The position numbers and the translations under genes are program-made. Shown here one piece after another: positions 57,235 through 64,000 of a stretch of DNA of 64,000 bases. Each line of letters starts with the position of its first letter. Positions within the stretch are counted from its first letter, which is position 1. Location of the stretch: contig OY282382.1 of the NCBI GenBank assembly GCA_958295905.1, positions 1,946,001 to 2,010,000 of the forward strand. Reading direction: 5' to 3'. This DNA is from an uncultured Vicinamibacterales bacterium. Its GTDB lineage: Bacteria > Acidobacteriota > Vicinamibacteria > Vicinamibacterales > UBA8438. The notes beneath the pieces are model-generated. The model saw only the letters and a list, made by a program, of their open reading frames with translations, was not told where the DNA came from and made no database searches.

Positions 57235-59160
57235 ATGAAACTGGGTCGCTGCAGTCTTGTCGCCGGTCTCGCCGGCGTCCTCGGCATGACCGGCGGCGCG
57301 GCGCCCGCCGGGAGCGGCCGCGTCCCCGGCCTTCAGGGCCAGCCCGCGCAGGACACCGTGCACATCCCGCCGTCGCTGGTCGACGAGAGCTGGGTCGAAC
57401 CGCGGCGGAATGCGCAGTTGCGGACGACCGGCGACTTCGACGTGTTCCACGAGTTCCAGTTCACGGATCGGGTCGCCGAGAGCGGCATCACCTTCGCGCA
57501 CCGGATCGTCAGCGACGCCGGCAGGGACTACAAGGCCGTCCACTACGACCACGGCAACGGGGTGGCGGCGGCGGACGTGGACGGCGACGGTCTGGACGAT
57601 CTGTACCTCGTGACCCAGGTGGGGGCCAACGAGCTGTGGCGGAACCTCGGCGGCGGGCGGTTCGAGAACGTCACCGGGGCGGCGGGGGTCGGCGTCGCCG
57701 ACAGGATTGGCGTCGCCGCCTCGTTCGCGGACATCGACAACGACGGCGACCCCGACCTCTACGTCACCACCGTCCGCGGCGGCAACGTGCTCTTCGAGAA
57801 CGACGGCGGCGGCACGTTCCGGGACATCTCGGCCGCGTCGGGGCTCGGCCACGTGGGCCACTCGTCGGGCGCGGTGTTCTTCGACTATGACCGCGACGGG
57901 CGGCTCGACCTGTTTCTGACCAACGTGGGCCGCTACACCACGGACGAGATCGGGGGCGACGGCTACCGCTACTACGTCGGGTACGAGGAGGACGCGTTCT
58001 CCGGGCATCTGTTTCCGGAACGGACCGAGCAGAGCCTGCTGTTCCGGAACGAGGGCGGGAACCGGTTCGTGGACGTTTCCGAGGCGACCGGTCTCGAGGA
58101 CGGGCGGTGGTCGGGCGACGCCAGCCCCCTCGACGTGAACGACGACGGCTGGACCGACCTGTACGTGCTGAACATGCAGGGCGACGACGAGTACTACGAG
58201 AACGTCGAGGGGATCCGCTTCGTGGCGCGGGGCCGCGAGGTGTTTCCCCGGACCTCGTGGGGCGCCATGGGGATTGCGGTCCTCGACTTCAACAACGACG
58301 GCCGCCAGGACATCTACATCACCGACATGCACTCCGACATGAGTCAGGAGGTCGGACCGGCCGACGAGAAGCGGAAGGCGGACATGATCTGGGACCCCTC
58401 GATCGTGGGCGACGGGACCACGAGCATCTGGGGCAACGCCTTCTTCCTGAACCTCGGGTCCGGCCAGTTCCGGGAGGTGTCGGACGAGATCGGGGCCGAG
58501 AACTACTGGCCCTGGGGGCCCAGCGCCGGCGACCTCAACGCCGACGGCTACGAGGACCTGTTCGTGGCGTCGAGCATGAACTTCCCCTTCCGCTACGGCG
58601 TCAACTCGGTGCTGCTGAACAACGGCGGCACGCGCTTTCTCGACGTCGAGTTCATCCTCGGGGTCGAGCCGCGTGCGGGGGGGCTGACCACGCCGTGGTT
58701 CGTGCTGGGCGCGGCGGACCGCCTGCCGACGTTCACCGGCACCCCGCGCGACGTGACCGTCCGGGCCGCGCGCGGCTCCCGTTCGGCCGTCATCTTCGAC
58801 CTCGACGACGACGGCGACCTCGACATCGTGACCTCCGAGTTCAACGCCGCCCCCATGGTGCTCGTGAGCGACCTCGCCGAGCGGCGGGGCATCCGCTACC
58901 TGAAGGTGCGGCTCGCCGGCGCCGCCTCGAACCGGGACGGCCTCGGCGCGCTCGTGCGGGTGACGGCCGGCGGCCGGGTCTACACGCAGCTCCACGACGG
59001 CAAGTCGGGGTACCTGTCGCAGAGCTCCCTGCCGCTGTACTTCGGTCTCGGCGCCGCCGACTCGGTGGAGCGCATCGACGTGCGGTGGCCGTCGGGGACC
59101 GAGCAGACGGTCCCGGGGCCGCTCGACGTGAACACCCTGATCGTGGTGGCCGAGGAGTAG
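57235..59160 (+). CDS. CRTAC1-type FG-GAP/ASPIC-UnbV secreted protein (third)
   Basis: The product is 641 residues from the ATG at 57235 behind CAGGAGTTCCCGCC, with a signal peptide (LVAGLAGVLGMTGGAAPAGS). FG-GAP loops are DVDGDGLDDLYL, DIDNDGDPDLYV, DYDRDGRLDLFL, DVNDDGWTDLYV, DFNNDGRQDIYI, DLNADGYEDLFV and DLDDDGDLDIVT. The C-terminus is ASPIC/UnbV (GLGALVRVTAGGRVYTQLHD, SGYLSQSSLPLYFGLG). It is more distant from the first two CRTAC1 proteins than they are from each other and has an extra DMHSDMSQEVGPADEKRKAD insertion. It closes the SMP-30/CRTAC1/TPR cluster. Confidence 0.9.
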   Translation: MKLGRCSLVAGLAGVLGMTGGAAPAGSGRVPGLQGQPAQDTVHIPPSLVDESWVEPRRNAQLRTTGDFDVFHEFQFTDRVAESGITFAHRIVSDAGRDYKAVHYDHGNGVAAADVDGDGLDDLYLVTQVGANELWRNLGGGRFENVTGAAGVGVADRIGVAASFADIDNDGDPDLYVTTVRGGNVLFENDGGGTFRDISAASGLGHVGHSSGAVFFDYDRDGRLDLFLTNVGRYTTDEIGGDGYRYYVGYEEDAFSGHLFPERTEQSLLFRNEGGNRFVDVSEATGLEDGRWSGDASPLDVNDDGWTDLYVLNMQGDDEYYENVEGIRFVARGREVFPRTSWGAMGIAVLDFNNDGRQDIYITDMHSDMSQEVGPADEKRKADMIWDPSIVGDGTTSIWGNAFFLNLGSGQFREVSDEIGAENYWPWGPSAGDLNADGYEDLFVASSMNFPFRYGVNSVLLNNGGTRFLDVEFILGVEPRAGGLTTPWFVLGAADRLPTFTGTPRDVTVRAARGSRSAVIFDLDDDGDLDIVTSEFNAAPMVLVSDLAERRGIRYLKVRLAGAASNRDGLGALVRVTAGGRVYTQLHDGKSGYLSQSSLPLYFGLGAADSVERIDVRWPSGTEQTVPGPLDVNTLIVVAEE

Positions 59161-59279
59161 CGGCGTGCCCCGCCCGGTTCGGAACGTCGTCGGAGCGGCC
59201 GGCCGGTGCGTTGCGTCCGCCCGGTGACGAGACCGCGGCCGGACCCGTGAAGACAGCCTCCCGGCCCGTACCGGATGGC

Positions 59280-59571
59280 AGCCGGGAGTGTGCGCCGTAG
59301 CGCGGCGCCGCAAGGATGTGCCGTTTCCCCCGGAGGTTGAGCGGCAATCGGGTCCGTAGGTGCCGATTGCCGGGACCCGGAGACTGCGCTGTAGCACGGC
59401 GCCGCCGCCCGCGCCGTAGGCGCCGATTCTCCTGGAGGGTTGGCTGGGCGGCAAATGGGATCCGTAGGCGGGGATTTCCGGGGCCCGGAGTCTGCGCCGT
59501 AGGCGCCGCTTCCCTGGAGGGTTGGTTGGGCGGCAATGGGATCCGTAGGCGCCGATTGCCGCCCAGGGGAC
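59280..59571 (+). repeat. R5 tandem array, about three degenerate units of about 100 bp
   Basis: Each unit has GGAG(T/A)CTGCGC(C/T)GTAG or a near match (59283, 59380, 59485). A GCCGCC/GGCGCC block, (C)CCTGGAGGGTTGGTTGGGCG and GGGATCCGTAGGCGCCGATT follow. Single copies of the same blocks are at 15950-16020, 16203 and 19146. The GGAGTCTGCGCCG end is also that of the MITE at 29585. Confidence 0.65.
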
Positions 59572-59578
59572 GTGCTAG
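59570..59578 (+). promoter_or_regulatory. Extended -10-like TGCTAGACT upstream of Uma2
   Basis: Identical to the nonamer at 27409-27417; here about 95 bp before the ATG at 59673. Confidence 0.35.
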
Positions 59579-59672
59579 ACTGCAAGCGTTCCCGTCGCCT
59601 CGCCATGACTTCCATGCTCGACTCGCCGAACACGCCCGCTCCGCATGCCGCCGGCGGTGGAGGAACACGGCC

Positions 59673-60290
59673 ATGACGGTTGCGGCGCAGCGGTTCGGAT
59701 TGCGCATCACCACCCCGGACAGTCGCACCGACATCGACGCCGGGCCGCTTCAAGGGCTCTGGACGGAGGCGCAATACCTCCAGTTGACGGAGCACGCCAG
59801 GCTGCTGATCGAGTTCACGGACGGCCGGCTGGAGGTTCCGTCCATGCCGACGGACCGCCATCAGGCCATCTCGCAGTTCCTGTTTCTGGCCCTGTCGTCC
59901 TTCGTCGGAAACCACGGCGGCAAGGTACGCTACGCCCCCCTGCGCCTGCGCATCCGCGACGGCAAGTTCCGCGAGCCCGACCTGCTGCTCGTTCGTGATG
60001 CGGGCGACCCGCGGCGCGGCAACGCCTACTGGCGCGGCGCCGACGTGGTCATGGAGATCGTCAGCCCCGACGACCCCGAGCGGGATACCCGGACAAAGCG
60101 CCGGGACTATGCGGAGGCGCGCATCCCCGAATACTGGATCGTCAATCCCCTGGACGAGACGATCACCGTGCTGACCCTGGCCGGCGGGGAATACACCGAG
60201 CATGGTGTATTTCGCAGAGGTCAGCCGGCGCCGTCGGCGTGTCTGAACGGCTTCGCCCCGCGCGTGTCGGACGTGTTCGATGCGCCGTGA
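59673..60290 (+). CDS. Uma2 family endonuclease (DUF820)
   Basis: The product is 205 residues from the ATG at 59673 behind GGAGGAACACGG. It is a PD-(D/E)xK restriction-like fold of the Uma2 type: RLLIEFTDGRLEVPSMPTDR, HQAISQFLFLALSSFVGNHG, LRLRIRDGKFREPDLLLVRD (Asp), VVMEIVSPDDPERDTRTKRR (Glu..Lys) and YAEARIPEYWIVNPLDETIT. These proteins are very numerous in cyanobacteria and some other groups; nuclease activity is predicted from fold, and biological role is unclear. Confidence 0.9.
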   Translation: MTVAAQRFGLRITTPDSRTDIDAGPLQGLWTEAQYLQLTEHARLLIEFTDGRLEVPSMPTDRHQAISQFLFLALSSFVGNHGGKVRYAPLRLRIRDGKFREPDLLLVRDAGDPRRGNAYWRGADVVMEIVSPDDPERDTRTKRRDYAEARIPEYWIVNPLDETITVLTLAGGEYTEHGVFRRGQPAPSACLNGFAPRVSDVFDAP

Positions 60291-60330
60291 AGGGCCGTCG
60301 ATGGCGATGGCCGCACCCAGGAGGTCTTGC

Positions 60331-60771
60331 ATGGTCTCGATACCGGTAAAGAGCCGGGGACGCTTTCTCCCCGCGGCGGCGTGCGGTCTCCTGCTTGCGG
60401 CGGCCGCGGTCCGCGGCCAGGCGCCGCCCGAGCAGCGGGCGGACGTCGACGAGTTGAAGGCGGCGATCGACGCCGGCGCCACCCTGCTGCTCATCGACGT
60501 GCGCGAGGACTGGGAGGTGGCGGGCGGGTCGATGCCGGGGTCGATACACATCCCGGTGGCCGAGCTCGAGCGCCGGATGCCGGACATCCCCAAGGATGTG
60601 CGGCTCGTCTTCTTTTGAAACGGCGGCAGCCGAGCCTCCCGTGCAGCGGAGCTCTTCACCGACAACGGATACCGGACGGCGGAATTCTGCGGCCTGAACG
60701 ACTGGAAGGCGAAAGGTTACGCGCTGGGCGAGACGGAGAGGCCGGCACCGGGGCCGATCGCGCCGAAATAG
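60331..60771 (+). CDS. Secreted rhodanese, candidate selenoprotein (in-frame TGA at catalytic Cys)
   Basis: The start is ATG 60331 behind GGAGGTCTTGC. Residues 1-30 are a signal peptide (FLPAAACGLLLAAAAVRGQA). A single rhodanese domain follows: DVDELKAAIDAGATLLLIDV, REDWEVAGGSMPGSIHIPVA and MPDIPKDVRLVFF. Then comes TGA (60616-60618, codon 96), and the frame stays open with good similarity, NGGSRASRAAELFTDNGYRT then FCGLNDWKAKGYALGE, to TAG at 60769-60771 (146 residues in all). In rhodaneses this position is the catalytic Cys (VxYC-xxGxRS). TGA exactly there, with a hairpin beginning 13 nt downstream, is the signature of selenocysteine. The enzyme would transfer sulfur or selenium in the periplasm. 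A nonsense mutation from TGC/TGT is the alternative. Confidence 0.7.
60632..60654 (+). promoter_or_regulatory. Candidate bacterial SECIS hairpin
   Basis: GAG-C-CTCC (60632-60639), loop CGTGCAGC (60640-60647) and GGAG-CTC (60648-60654) form a 7-bp stem with one bulged C and an 8-nt loop. The loop begins 21 nt after the TGA and has G at its second base, within the usual bSECIS limits (loop 16-37 nt downstream, G in the first two loop positions). Confidence 0.55.
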
Positions 60772-61506
60772 GGCGGGTGTACGGCCGGCGACGCCGCCGG
60801 CGCCAGCCCATTGAGCGACGCGTGGCGCAACTGCTCGGCGGCCGCCTCGCTACCTTGCTGCAGCAGGTTGGCCTTGTGCAGCATCCTCAACCAGCGCGCC
60901 TTGTTCTTGTTCGCGGTCTGCGCCTCGTAGTCGATCTGCGGATCGCGGTACGGCTTGCCGTCGCGGAGCATCGCGAACACGACGCGCAGGATCTTGTGCC
61001 CCGTCGCCAGGACCGCCCGTCCCGAGCCGCGCCCTTTTCGCGAGCCGTTGCTTTGTACGGCCCGAACTGTGTGTCGCGGGTGCGCTCCGTCGCGCGCGCG
61101 ATCTCACACAGGACGCGCTGCAGGTACACATTGCCCTTGCGCCGCTTCCCGCTCTTGCTCCTGCCGGCCGATTCGTGGTTGCCCGGGCACATGCCCGCCC
61201 AACTCGCCAACCGCCGGGCCGTGCCGAGGGGGTCCATGTCGTCGCCGACTTCCGCCAACAGGGCGGCCGCCGCCAGCGGCCCTGTCCCCGGCAGCGTCCA
61301 GGGCAGTTCGTGATCCCGCCGGACCGCGTCGGAATGCGCCGCTCCATGTCTTCCAACGAGCGCTCAACCGCACCCAGCATGTTGCGCAACAAAACCACCA
61401 TCGGCTTGACGCCGTCGTCCATCCTCCGCCCGAAGGCATCCAGCAGCACATGGATCTTCTTGCGGGCGTTGCCCTTGACGTTCTGCACCATCTCTTCCGG
61501 GTCCGG
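60772..61506 (-). pseudogene. Decayed IS110-family transposase, copy 1
   Basis: The minus strand carries pieces of an IS110 C-terminal (Transposase_20) region in different frames: PEEMVQNVKGNARKKIHVLL, LRNMLGAVERSLEDMERRI, then AEVGDDMDPLGTARRLASWA, MCPGNHESAGRSKSGKRRKG, and FAMLRDGKPYRDPQIDYEAQ. At least two frameshifts and a short deletion separate them. It is about 85-90% similar to the copy at 61906. The element's edge lies at the 3' end of the rhodanese gene. Confidence 0.8.
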
Positions 61507-61610
61507 CCCTTCGTCAATGTCCGTCGCCGCGACGCGCTGCTGTTCCAGCCAAGCACTGAAGATCGCGGCAGCTCGGACGTACCGGTGCATGTGGGGTCGG
61601 TGCCGGGCTC
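61507..61610 (-). pseudogene. Fragment resembling a tyrosine-integrase N-terminal domain
   Basis: PHMHRYVRAAAIFSAWLEQQ then RVAATDIDEG resembles the SAM-like core-binding domain of phage-type integrases. It is fused directly to the decayed IS110 copy 1. Confidence 0.35.
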
Positions 61611-61624
61611 GAATCGATCGGCAT

Positions 61625-61740
61625 TCACGCGTTCGGCAACACCAGATCCACCACCGTCCCGTTGCTGTGGTAGCCCTTGTCCGCAACCACCTCCGTAACC
61701 CCGTCGCCTCCGGCAACACCGCCTCCACCTTTTCCTCCGA
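61625..61740 (-). pseudogene. Fragment of a DDE transposase
   Basis: VTEVVADKGYHSNGTVVDLV then LPNA and a stop. ADKGYHSN is a recognisable block of several DDE transposase families (IS1182/ISNCY-like). Only this block remains. Confidence 0.45.
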
Positions 61741-61905
61741 AAGCCCCGCGAGGCATAGACGCACTTCACCTTTCCCGCCCCGACGGCTCTTTCGTCAGGC
61801 CGGCGGTGTCCGAGTGGAAGCTGAGAGGACGGCGCCCGGCGCGCCCGGTACGCGTGCTTCCCCTTCGCCCGCGCTTCTTCCGTGCAGGCGCCGGCCGTCG
61901 CCGAG

Positions 61906-62793
61906 TCAAGCAGTGACCGGTGCGGGTGCGCCGCCCAGCGTTGCCGGCGGCCCGGCGCCGGTCACGCCGGTCACTGCCGGCGCGCGGCGCAACTGCTCGG
62001 CGGCCGCCTTCGCCACCTCCTGCAGCAGGTTCGCCTTGCGCAGCATCCTCAACCAGCGTGCCTTGTTCTTGTTCGCGGTCTGCGCCTCGTAGTCGATCTG
62101 CGGATCGCGGTACGGCTTGCCGTCGCGGAGCATCGCGAACACGATGCGCAGGATCTTGTGCCCCGTCGCCACGACCGCCCGTCCCGAGCCGCGCCCTTTC
62201 GCGAGCCGCTGCTTGTACGGCCCGAACTGCGTGTTGCGGGTGCGAGCCGCCGCGTGCGCGATCTCACACAGGATGCGCCGCAGGTACACATTGCCCTTGC
62301 GCCGCCTCCCGCCCTTGCTCTTGCCGGCCGATTCGTGGTTGCCCGGGCACATGCCCGCCCAACTCGCCAGCCGCCGGGCCGTGCCGAAGGCGTCCATGTC
62401 GTCGCCGACTTCCGCCAACAGGGCGGCCGCCGCCAGCGGTCCCGTCCCCGGCAGCGTCTGCAGCAGCGTCCAGGGCAGTTCGTAATCCCGCCGGACCGCG
62501 TCGAAAATGCGCCGCTCCATGTCCTCCAACGAGCGCTCGACCGTGCCCGACATGTTGCGCAACAAGACCACCAGCGGCTTGACGCCGTCGTCCATCCCCC
62601 GCCCGAGAGCATCCAGCAGCGCAGGGATCTTCTTGCGGGCGTTGCCCTTGACGTTCTGCACCATCTCTTCCGGGTCCCGGCCCTCGACCAGGCCGTCCAG
62701 CAGATGGCGGCCCGAGAGGCCGAACAGGTCCGTCAGAATGCCGCCGATGCGCAGGCCGCCCTCGTCTGTTGTCGAGCGCCTGAAAGTGATCAT
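61906..62793 (-). pseudogene. IS110-family transposase, copy 2, N-terminally truncated
   Basis: An open frame of 295 residues from ATG 62793. It contains the IS110 linker (GGILTDLFGLSGRHLLDGLV, GRDPEEMVQNVKGNARKKIP) and the Transposase_20 domain: LPGTGPLAAAALLAEVGDDM, RLASWAGMCPGNHESAGKSK, GGRRRKGNVYLRRILCEIAH and FAMLRDGKPYRDPQIDYEAQ. The N-terminal DEDD (RuvC-like) catalytic domain of about 150 residues is gone; the frame runs into the IS21 terminus at about 62767. It cannot be active. Confidence 0.82.
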
Positions 62794-62816
62794 TTCTGCA
62801 CCGCCATCGACTGTGC

Positions 62817-63632
62817 TCACTGCTGACCGCCGTTGTCGGCTGCCCGTTTGCGGGACGGGCGTTTGCGGCTGCGCTGCTGCCGGGTGAGTTCGGCCTCGCG
62901 TCGGCGGTAGCTCTGGCCTTCGATGGCGAGGATCTCCGCGTGGTGGGTCAGGCGGTCGATCAGGGCGACGGCGCAGGAGGCGTTGGGGAAGACGGTGTCC
63001 CAGTGCTTGAAGGGCAGGTTGGTGGTGATGAGGAGGGAGCGGTGCTCGTAGCGGCGGCTGACGAGCTGGAAGAGGAGGTCGGCGGCGCGTGCATCGTAGG
63101 CGAGGTAGCCGACCTCGTCGACCGCGAGCAGCGCGGGGCGGGTGTAGTGCTTGAGACGGCGTTCGAGGGTGCGGGCGGTCTCCTGTCCGTTGAGGTCGAG
63201 GAGGAGGTCGGCGGCGGTGGTGAAGAGGGCGGAATGGCCGGCGAGGATGGCTTGGTGGGCGATGTTCTTGGCGAGCATGGTCTTGCCGAGGCCCTGGGCG
63301 CCGACGAGGATGACGTTCTCGCCGCGGGTAAGGAAGTCGAGGGTGAGGATGCGTTCGAGGGCCGGGCGTTCGAGGGCGGCGGGCCAGTTCCAGTCCCAGT
63401 CGGCGAGGGGCTTGAAGCGTCCGAGTCGGGCGCAGGTGAGTCGGCGCTCGACGCTGCGTCGCTGTCGGTCTTGGAGTTCGGCGGCGGCGATGTGTTCGAG
63501 CAGGGCGGTCGGGCTCCAGCGCTTGCGGGTGGCCATGGCGATGATGTCGTTGAGGTCGTCGGCGGTGCGGTTGAGTCCGAGTCGGCGGAGTTCAGTCGCC
63601 GGCGTCGTCGGGGGTGTTTCGGCTGAGGGCAT
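62817..63632 (-). CDS. istB: IS21-family helper ATPase IstB
   Basis: The product is 271 residues from the ATG at 63632, overlapping the end of istA by 41 bp. AAA+ motifs of the transposition helper are clear: FLTRGENVILVGAQGLGKTM (Walker A), ALLAVDEVGYLAYDARAADL (Walker B), SLLITTNLPFKHWDTVFPN (sensor 1) and LIDRLTHHAEILAIEGQSYR. IstB loads and activates the IstA transposase at target DNA. The Arg/Lys-rich tail (RQQRSRKRPSRKRAADNGG) is usual for the family. Confidence 0.92.
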   Translation of the reverse strand: MPSAETPPTTPATELRRLGLNRTADDLNDIIAMATRKRWSPTALLEHIAAAELQDRQRRSVERRLTCARLGRFKPLADWDWNWPAALERPALERILTLDFLTRGENVILVGAQGLGKTMLAKNIAHQAILAGHSALFTTAADLLLDLNGQETARTLERRLKHYTRPALLAVDEVGYLAYDARAADLLFQLVSRRYEHRSLLITTNLPFKHWDTVFPNASCAVALIDRLTHHAEILAIEGQSYRRREAELTRQQRSRKRPSRKRAADNGGQQ

Positions 63633-64000
63633 CGTAGGTCTCCAGGTCATGTGGCCGGACGTCGAGGTCCCGCAGTCCGGGTCGGTCGGGCAGAGCGAGG
63701 CGGAGCGGTGGTTTGAGTCCGCGCCGTCGCCGTCGCGTTTCGAGGATGTGGGCGATGGAGCCGGCGCCGGGGGCGTCTCGTTGGAGGGCGTCGGCAACGG
63801 CGGCGGCGAGTTCCTGCGGCCCGTAATCGTCGAGGAGAGCGAGCAGCCGGGTGGCGTGGGGTCTGAGCGCTTCTCCGCGCCCGGCGAGTCGCTCGAAGAG
63901 GGCGGCGGTGGCGGGGACGGCGGCGCGGAGGCGGTCGCGGGTGGTGTGGGTGTTGGTCTGGCGGGTGGCGGCGAGGAGCCCTTCGAGATGGTCGGGGTCC
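63592..64000 (-). CDS. istA: IS21-family transposase IstA, C-terminal part
   Basis: The minus-strand frame is open from the window edge to TGA at 63594-63592, giving 136 residues. It has RLAGRGEALRPHATRLLALL, DDYGPQELAAAVADALQRDA, GAGSIAHILETRRRRRGLKP and DVRPHDLETYDAL, the poorly conserved C-terminal region of IstA proteins. The identification rests on its position directly upstream of and overlapping istB. The DDE catalytic core lies outside the window. Confidence 0.75.
   Translation of the reverse strand, partial: DPDHLEGLLAATRQTNTHTTRDRLRAAVPATAALFERLAGRGEALRPHATRLLALLDDYGPQELAAAVADALQRDAPGAGSIAHILETRRRRRGLKPPLRLALPDRPGLRDLDVRPHDLETYDALSRNTPDDAGD

Follow-up and report, generated by a model that had tools for sequence, protein, structure and literature searches.

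The window analysed here, a stretch of 64,000 nucleotides from an uncultured Vicinamibacterales bacterium, contains a rhodanese gene with an in-frame TGA (Table 1). As the initial annotation had described, 95 codons precede the TGA, which is codon 96, and 50 more codons of rhodanese C-terminus follow it up to the TAG at 60769-60771. The TGA occupies the place of the catalytic cysteine within LVFF-U-NGGSR. Translated through the TGA, the product matches the Pfam Rhodanese model PF00581 with 51.7 bits (cut-off 22.2) over residues 39-126 and consists of a single rhodanese domain behind an export signal, which was judged by eye. The active-site loop U-N-G-G-S-R comprises six residues, starts with the nucleophile and ends in an arginine (R101) that is invariant in the alignment of the family, and invariant family residues were found both N- and C-terminal of the TGA position. 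Upstream of the gene (57235-60290) lie the genes of an FG-GAP/UnbV-ASPIC protein and a Uma2-family protein, an order common to the congener L049. Directly behind the rhodanese gene, remains of an IS110-type element and then of an IS21 IstB gene extend over 60784-63797.

Table 1. Features of the Sec-rhodanese locus (positions in the window).
Feature	Position	Strand	Basis
Shine-Dalgarno sequence AGGAGGT, 5 nt ahead of the ATG at 60331	60319..60325	+	read from sequence
Predicted Sec-rhodanese reading frame (146 residues, Sec96 included), TAG end	60331..60771	+	frame, PF00581 match, orthologues
Predicted export signal with basic n-region and hydrophobic core; putative cleavage near residue 30	60331..60420	+	by eye; similar orthologue N-termini
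TGA, predicted selenocysteine U96, residue 1 of the active-site loop	60616..60618	+	
Putative bacterial SECIS hairpin, 7 bp, one bulged C	60632..60654	+	stem-codon conservation
TGC codon of Cys120, unvarying within the Sec clade; takes the place of the leading Gly in the canonical GG that follows strand 5	60688..60690	+	
IS110 transposase remains	61906-62820		
IS21 IstB remains	62817-63797		

Across 60 related genomes, all matches with an E value better than 1e-17 had exactly one internal stop, which was always TGA. Further members were found by scanning GTDB genomes and a sample of 396 Acidobacteriota genomes. Altogether, 33 Acidobacteriota genomes, among them those of two congeners and of roughly a dozen other genera, have a TGA at the aligned cysteine codon and an otherwise open frame up to the end of the gene. 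The rhodaneses aligned outside this clade all have TGC or TGT at the catalytic codon. The initial annotation had called for an alignment of homologues and named random stops elsewhere in the gene as a sign against a selenoprotein; relatives share the TGA at the same codon and have no such stops.

A single C-to-A change from TGC to TGA had also been put forward, either as a sequencing error or as the mark of a pseudogene next to decayed transposons, with the C-terminal portion left as a relic. TGA is indeed one base from TGC, the IS110 and IS21 remains start just past the gene, and amino-acid change after the TGA is raised compared with the congeners. However, congeners and other genera carry the TGA independently of this window, and its presence at one codon in 33 genomes excludes an error or a pseudogene for practical purposes. 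We therefore rejected this explanation, whose probability we regard as negligible. When the window is compared with the congeners L049 and L050, DNA homology extends across the upstream Uma2 gene and the complete rhodanese gene and ends a few bases past the stop codon, where other genes follow in the congeners instead of IS remains. The decayed transposons noticed at first are thus real but start only beyond the gene, and they abut an intact, vertically inherited copy. After the TGA (60616-60771), dN between the window copy and L049/L050 (0.126) is higher than dS (0.076). Every residue changed relative to these congeners occurs in other orthologues, and in the tree the window copy is nearer to L022-L024 than to its congeners. 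Exchange between alleles or local gene exchange is a possible source of these differences; decay of the window copy is not indicated by the sequences compared. Among pairs of Vicinamibacteria-type orthologues, the median dN/dS was 0.21 before the TGA and 0.26 after it. Purifying selection beyond the TGA thus equals that ahead of it in strength, which likewise argues against a pseudogene.

The initial annotation had made its proposal depend on selA, selB, selD and a tRNA-Sec gene in the same genome, and all four are present. In the host genome (6.3 Mb, 98% complete) we detected SelA with 542 bits, SelD with 290 bits and SelB with 302.9 bits for its main part and 332 bits with the C-terminal part, all above the curated cut-offs; the tRNA-Sec scored 63 bits, also above its cut-off, and ARAGORN gives it a tca anticodon. 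SelB was detected in 17 of the 19 family genomes searched. The two negative genomes are draft assemblies (the counterpart of one of them, G004, was 77% complete in the other survey). Because nearly all relatives have SelB, its co-occurrence with the gene offers no contrast.

A bacterial SECIS hairpin was looked for downstream of the TGA with the criteria of a loop of 3-9 nt, a G in the first two loop positions and a distance of 16-37 nt, the last being the published bSECIS window for the loop (PMC13188914). In the window, the 5′ arm (60632-60639) and the 3′ arm (60648-60654) form seven pairs around the 8-nt loop CGUGCAGC (60640-60647), which has G at position 2. The loop starts 21 nt past the TGA and the whole hairpin lies 14-36 nt downstream. 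The stem, loop, G and distance given in the initial annotation were all found again, but the bulged C at 60636 had been left out. Each of the 33 Sec sequences is able to fold into a hairpin with these features. Folding of the RNA downstream of the TGA, recommended at the outset as a check, did not set the single-sequence hairpin apart from chance: free folding of 45-85 nt past the TGA revealed no excess stability in this GC-rich sequence, and synonymous-codon shuffles of the window hairpin alone gave p = 0.41. The hairpin of the window could by itself therefore be due to chance. The same shuffles applied to each sequence reached p<=0.05 in only two of the 33 Sec sequences, so that this assay is not decisive alone; set-wise, the excess over shuffles was larger for the Sec sequences (mean z -0.98) than for the Cys homologues (-0.28).

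Comparison of orthologues was more informative. In subgroup A (15 orthologues) the stem is formed by codons 6, 7, 10, 11 and 12 after the TGA. The synonymous choice at these codons never varies among pairs with the same residue, six-fold degenerate Ser and Leu included, while the loop codons 8 and 9 do vary (0.47 and 0.35 in a set of 16 rows) and codons elsewhere in the gene have a mean of 0.635. Nine of 81 codons are invariant; the chance that these include all five stem codons is approximately 5e-6 if codons are independent, a figure made optimistic by shared ancestry. The hairpin of subgroup B is a different one, GGCGCGC-NNN-GCGCGCY, with 7 bp and a loop 17 nt from the TGA; here codons 4, 5 and 6 are frozen, and at the wobble positions facing G only C or U occurs. 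The frozen codons thus differ between the subgroups, each set fitting its own hairpin, and conservation moves with the hairpin. RNAalifold found little covariation in the aligned orthologues because the stems hardly vary. Its consensus for subgroup A contains only four inner pairs of the proposed hairpin (columns 18-21 with 30-33), along with a short hairpin at columns 3-14. The predicted SECIS element is therefore convincing only by comparison of orthologues and not from the single sequence.

These data also bear on the reading of the TGA as a real stop that leaves a functional truncated domain of 95 residues, or as a codon for another amino acid or for general readthrough. A truncated product would retain the signal peptide together with the initial strands, but it would lack the active-site loop, and neither the selection on the protein past the TGA nor the frozen stem codons would be expected of it. 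TGA terminates other genes in the window and in the relatives, which argues against a global recoding, and the Sec machinery is at hand. On these grounds truncation at the TGA was rejected, and we consider this group of readings very improbable. Almost certainly, then, the gene is a genuine and conserved bacterial selenoprotein gene, as judged from sequence comparison.

All 31 Sec members long enough for the tree fell, together with L067, into one clade with a support of 99/97, in an alignment of only 100 columns in which many inner forks are soft. L067 (394-732) is nested among the Sec members and is the sole Cys member (TGC) of the clade. Its genome retains SelB, and its best allowed hairpin is weak (-6.5 kcal/mol). 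In the simplest history, Sec would have arisen once and been exchanged for Cys later in L067. Among 400 Chloroflexota genomes, the best ten matches were Cys rhodaneses with Gly-Gly and the Sec family was not seen; in this sample it is therefore unseen outside the Acidobacteriota. The plasmids searched yielded only distant rhodaneses of <60% identity. Another group of Acidobacteriota rhodaneses (L041, L044, L048) has the active-site motif CRGPYC with two cysteines and is devoid of the CxxGxR loop. No conserved gene neighbours beyond the genus were found in the loci examined; the gene stands alone in surroundings that differ among genera, so that the context does not suggest a partner.

N-terminal signal sequences and one lipobox, all recognized by eye, support the extracytoplasmic location assumed from the beginning. 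The lipobox (VGLVGVACQ) belongs to the lipoprotein-type signal of a distant Sec-rhodanese, L145 (G100), and suggests membrane anchoring in some members.

The AlphaFold2 model has a confident rhodanese fold (pLDDT 85), and the structural matches in the PDB are rhodaneses, with 3tp9 as the best (Z 17.1). A selenoprotein with a rhodanese fold is highly probable, whichever mechanism it uses. U96 lies at the end of the strand formed by residues 91-96 and C120 at the end of the strand formed by residues 116-121. We take these strands to be neighbouring and parallel, as in the rhodanese fold, and hence both residues should face the active-site pocket. After the last strand, canonical rhodaneses have N-L/M-x-G-G, and Gly-Gly was present in most Cys rhodaneses compared, as a common rather than a defining feature. 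The Sec clade lacks this Gly-Gly and has instead [FY]-C-[GAPV]-[LI], followed by N or R. Cysteine was found in the C120 column of all 31 aligned Sec members and of L067, compared with none of 51 other rhodaneses. The sequences thus support UGA as a Sec codon, a conserved hairpin, the rhodanese fold and the invariance of U96 and C120; export, Se-S pairing, the substrate class and the partner are inferred.

The absence of C120 from the ordinary rhodaneses compared makes a redox enzyme possible instead of simple sulfur transfer, and the invariant second cysteine argues for redox chemistry no less than for sulfur transfer. Selenol/thiol redox pairs commonly consist of a Sec nucleophile coupled to an invariant cysteine. 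We therefore rank an exported Sec/Cys oxidoreductase first and sulfur transfer second. A U96-C120 redox mechanism, in which an exported protein with a rhodanese scaffold would act as a thiol oxidoreductase or a persulfide reductase, is plausible at a little below an even chance. During translation, SelB together with Sec-tRNA-Sec would decode UGA 96 as selenocysteine under the direction of the downstream hairpin. The product would be exported, soluble or lipid-anchored, and would fold into one rhodanese domain whose catalytic position holds Sec. According to the redox model, the selenolate would then attack a disulfide, a persulfide or a peroxide-type substrate outside the cytoplasm; Cys120, located where the next strand ends, would resolve the intermediate as an Se-S bond, which a partner would then reduce.

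The selenoprotein might instead be a true extracytoplasmic sulfurtransferase that uses a thiosulfate or persulfide donor and forms an E-Se-S intermediate, with C120 having a structural or metal-binding function. This would agree with the rhodanese family match and fold and with the six-residue loop, which keeps the invariant R101; in yeast RDL2 an arginine in the active-site loop is essential for thiosulfate cleavage (PMC8533005). Yet Gly-Gly after strand 5 is exchanged for an invariant cysteine in exactly the Sec clade, and Sec proteins, both predicted and known, are mostly redox proteins (PMC1088965, PMC9312934). We regard sulfur transfer as the less probable mechanism, although one that deserves serious consideration.

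The clade combines predicted export, an occurrence limited to Acidobacteriota in the searches made and an invariant second cysteine. It adds a well-supported, predictedly exported selenoprotein clade to a phylum for which few selenoproteins are described in the literature covered. Selenoprotein genes in general are misannotated as truncated at the TGA (PMC1088965), and the genes of this clade probably are as well. The coupling of Sec to a new second cysteine offers a direct test of the conversion of the rhodanese fold from sulfur transfer to selenium-based redox catalysis, for which L067, as a natural Cys member, is a ready comparison enzyme. That the clade is a separate family without a model, confined to Acidobacteriota, in which the rhodanese scaffold was turned into an exported U96/C120 redox enzyme for extracytoplasmic persulfides, disulfides or oxidants, is a tentative proposal that we hold to be possible rather than probable.

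The gene was at first described as a candidate new selenoprotein, a term that has to be qualified. No NCBIfam model covers the present clade, but Sec rhodaneses as such have already been published (PMC1088965, PMC9312934, PMC13188914). They were predicted in 2005 (PMC1088965), and a review from 2026 distinguishes five forms, of which two have UxxG motifs (PMC13188914). These two, forms 2 and 4 (MBM9537886.1 and MCY3690685.1), stand among the computationally predicted families (PMC13188914). Like our protein they belong to the single rhodanese family PF00581, have Sec where the catalytic Cys would be and contain UxxG, here U-N-G-G; the comparison is by motif only, and they may or may not belong to the same clade. 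Form 3, rhodanese_LYCAU (NF041203), and form 5, TsoB (NF045694), are likewise rhodanese-related bacterial selenoproteins, but their Sec sits in CxU or UxxxxU motifs. Both models reject the present protein, which scored 33.2 bits with NF041203 (curated cut-off 115) and 23.1 bits with NF045694 (curated cut-off 805). The Sec rhodanese-related sulfurtransferase from the Sargasso Sea is also a predicted Sec rhodanese with a bSECIS element, but it belongs to the COG2897 group and comprises three environmental sequences only (PMC1088965). The single-domain Cys rhodaneses GlpE, PspE, RDL2 and TSTD1 have the same fold and a six-residue active-site loop with a basic residue. They differ by Cys instead of Sec; those aligned lack C120, and most of those compared have Gly-Gly after strand 5. 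Finally, the rhodanese domains of persulfide reductase and CoA-disulfide reductase (PDB 3nta, 3icr) are structural matches with Z 14.6-15.7. These domains are Cys-dependent and fused to an FAD-dependent reductase, in contrast to the present protein, but the enzymes carry out persulfide or disulfide redox chemistry.
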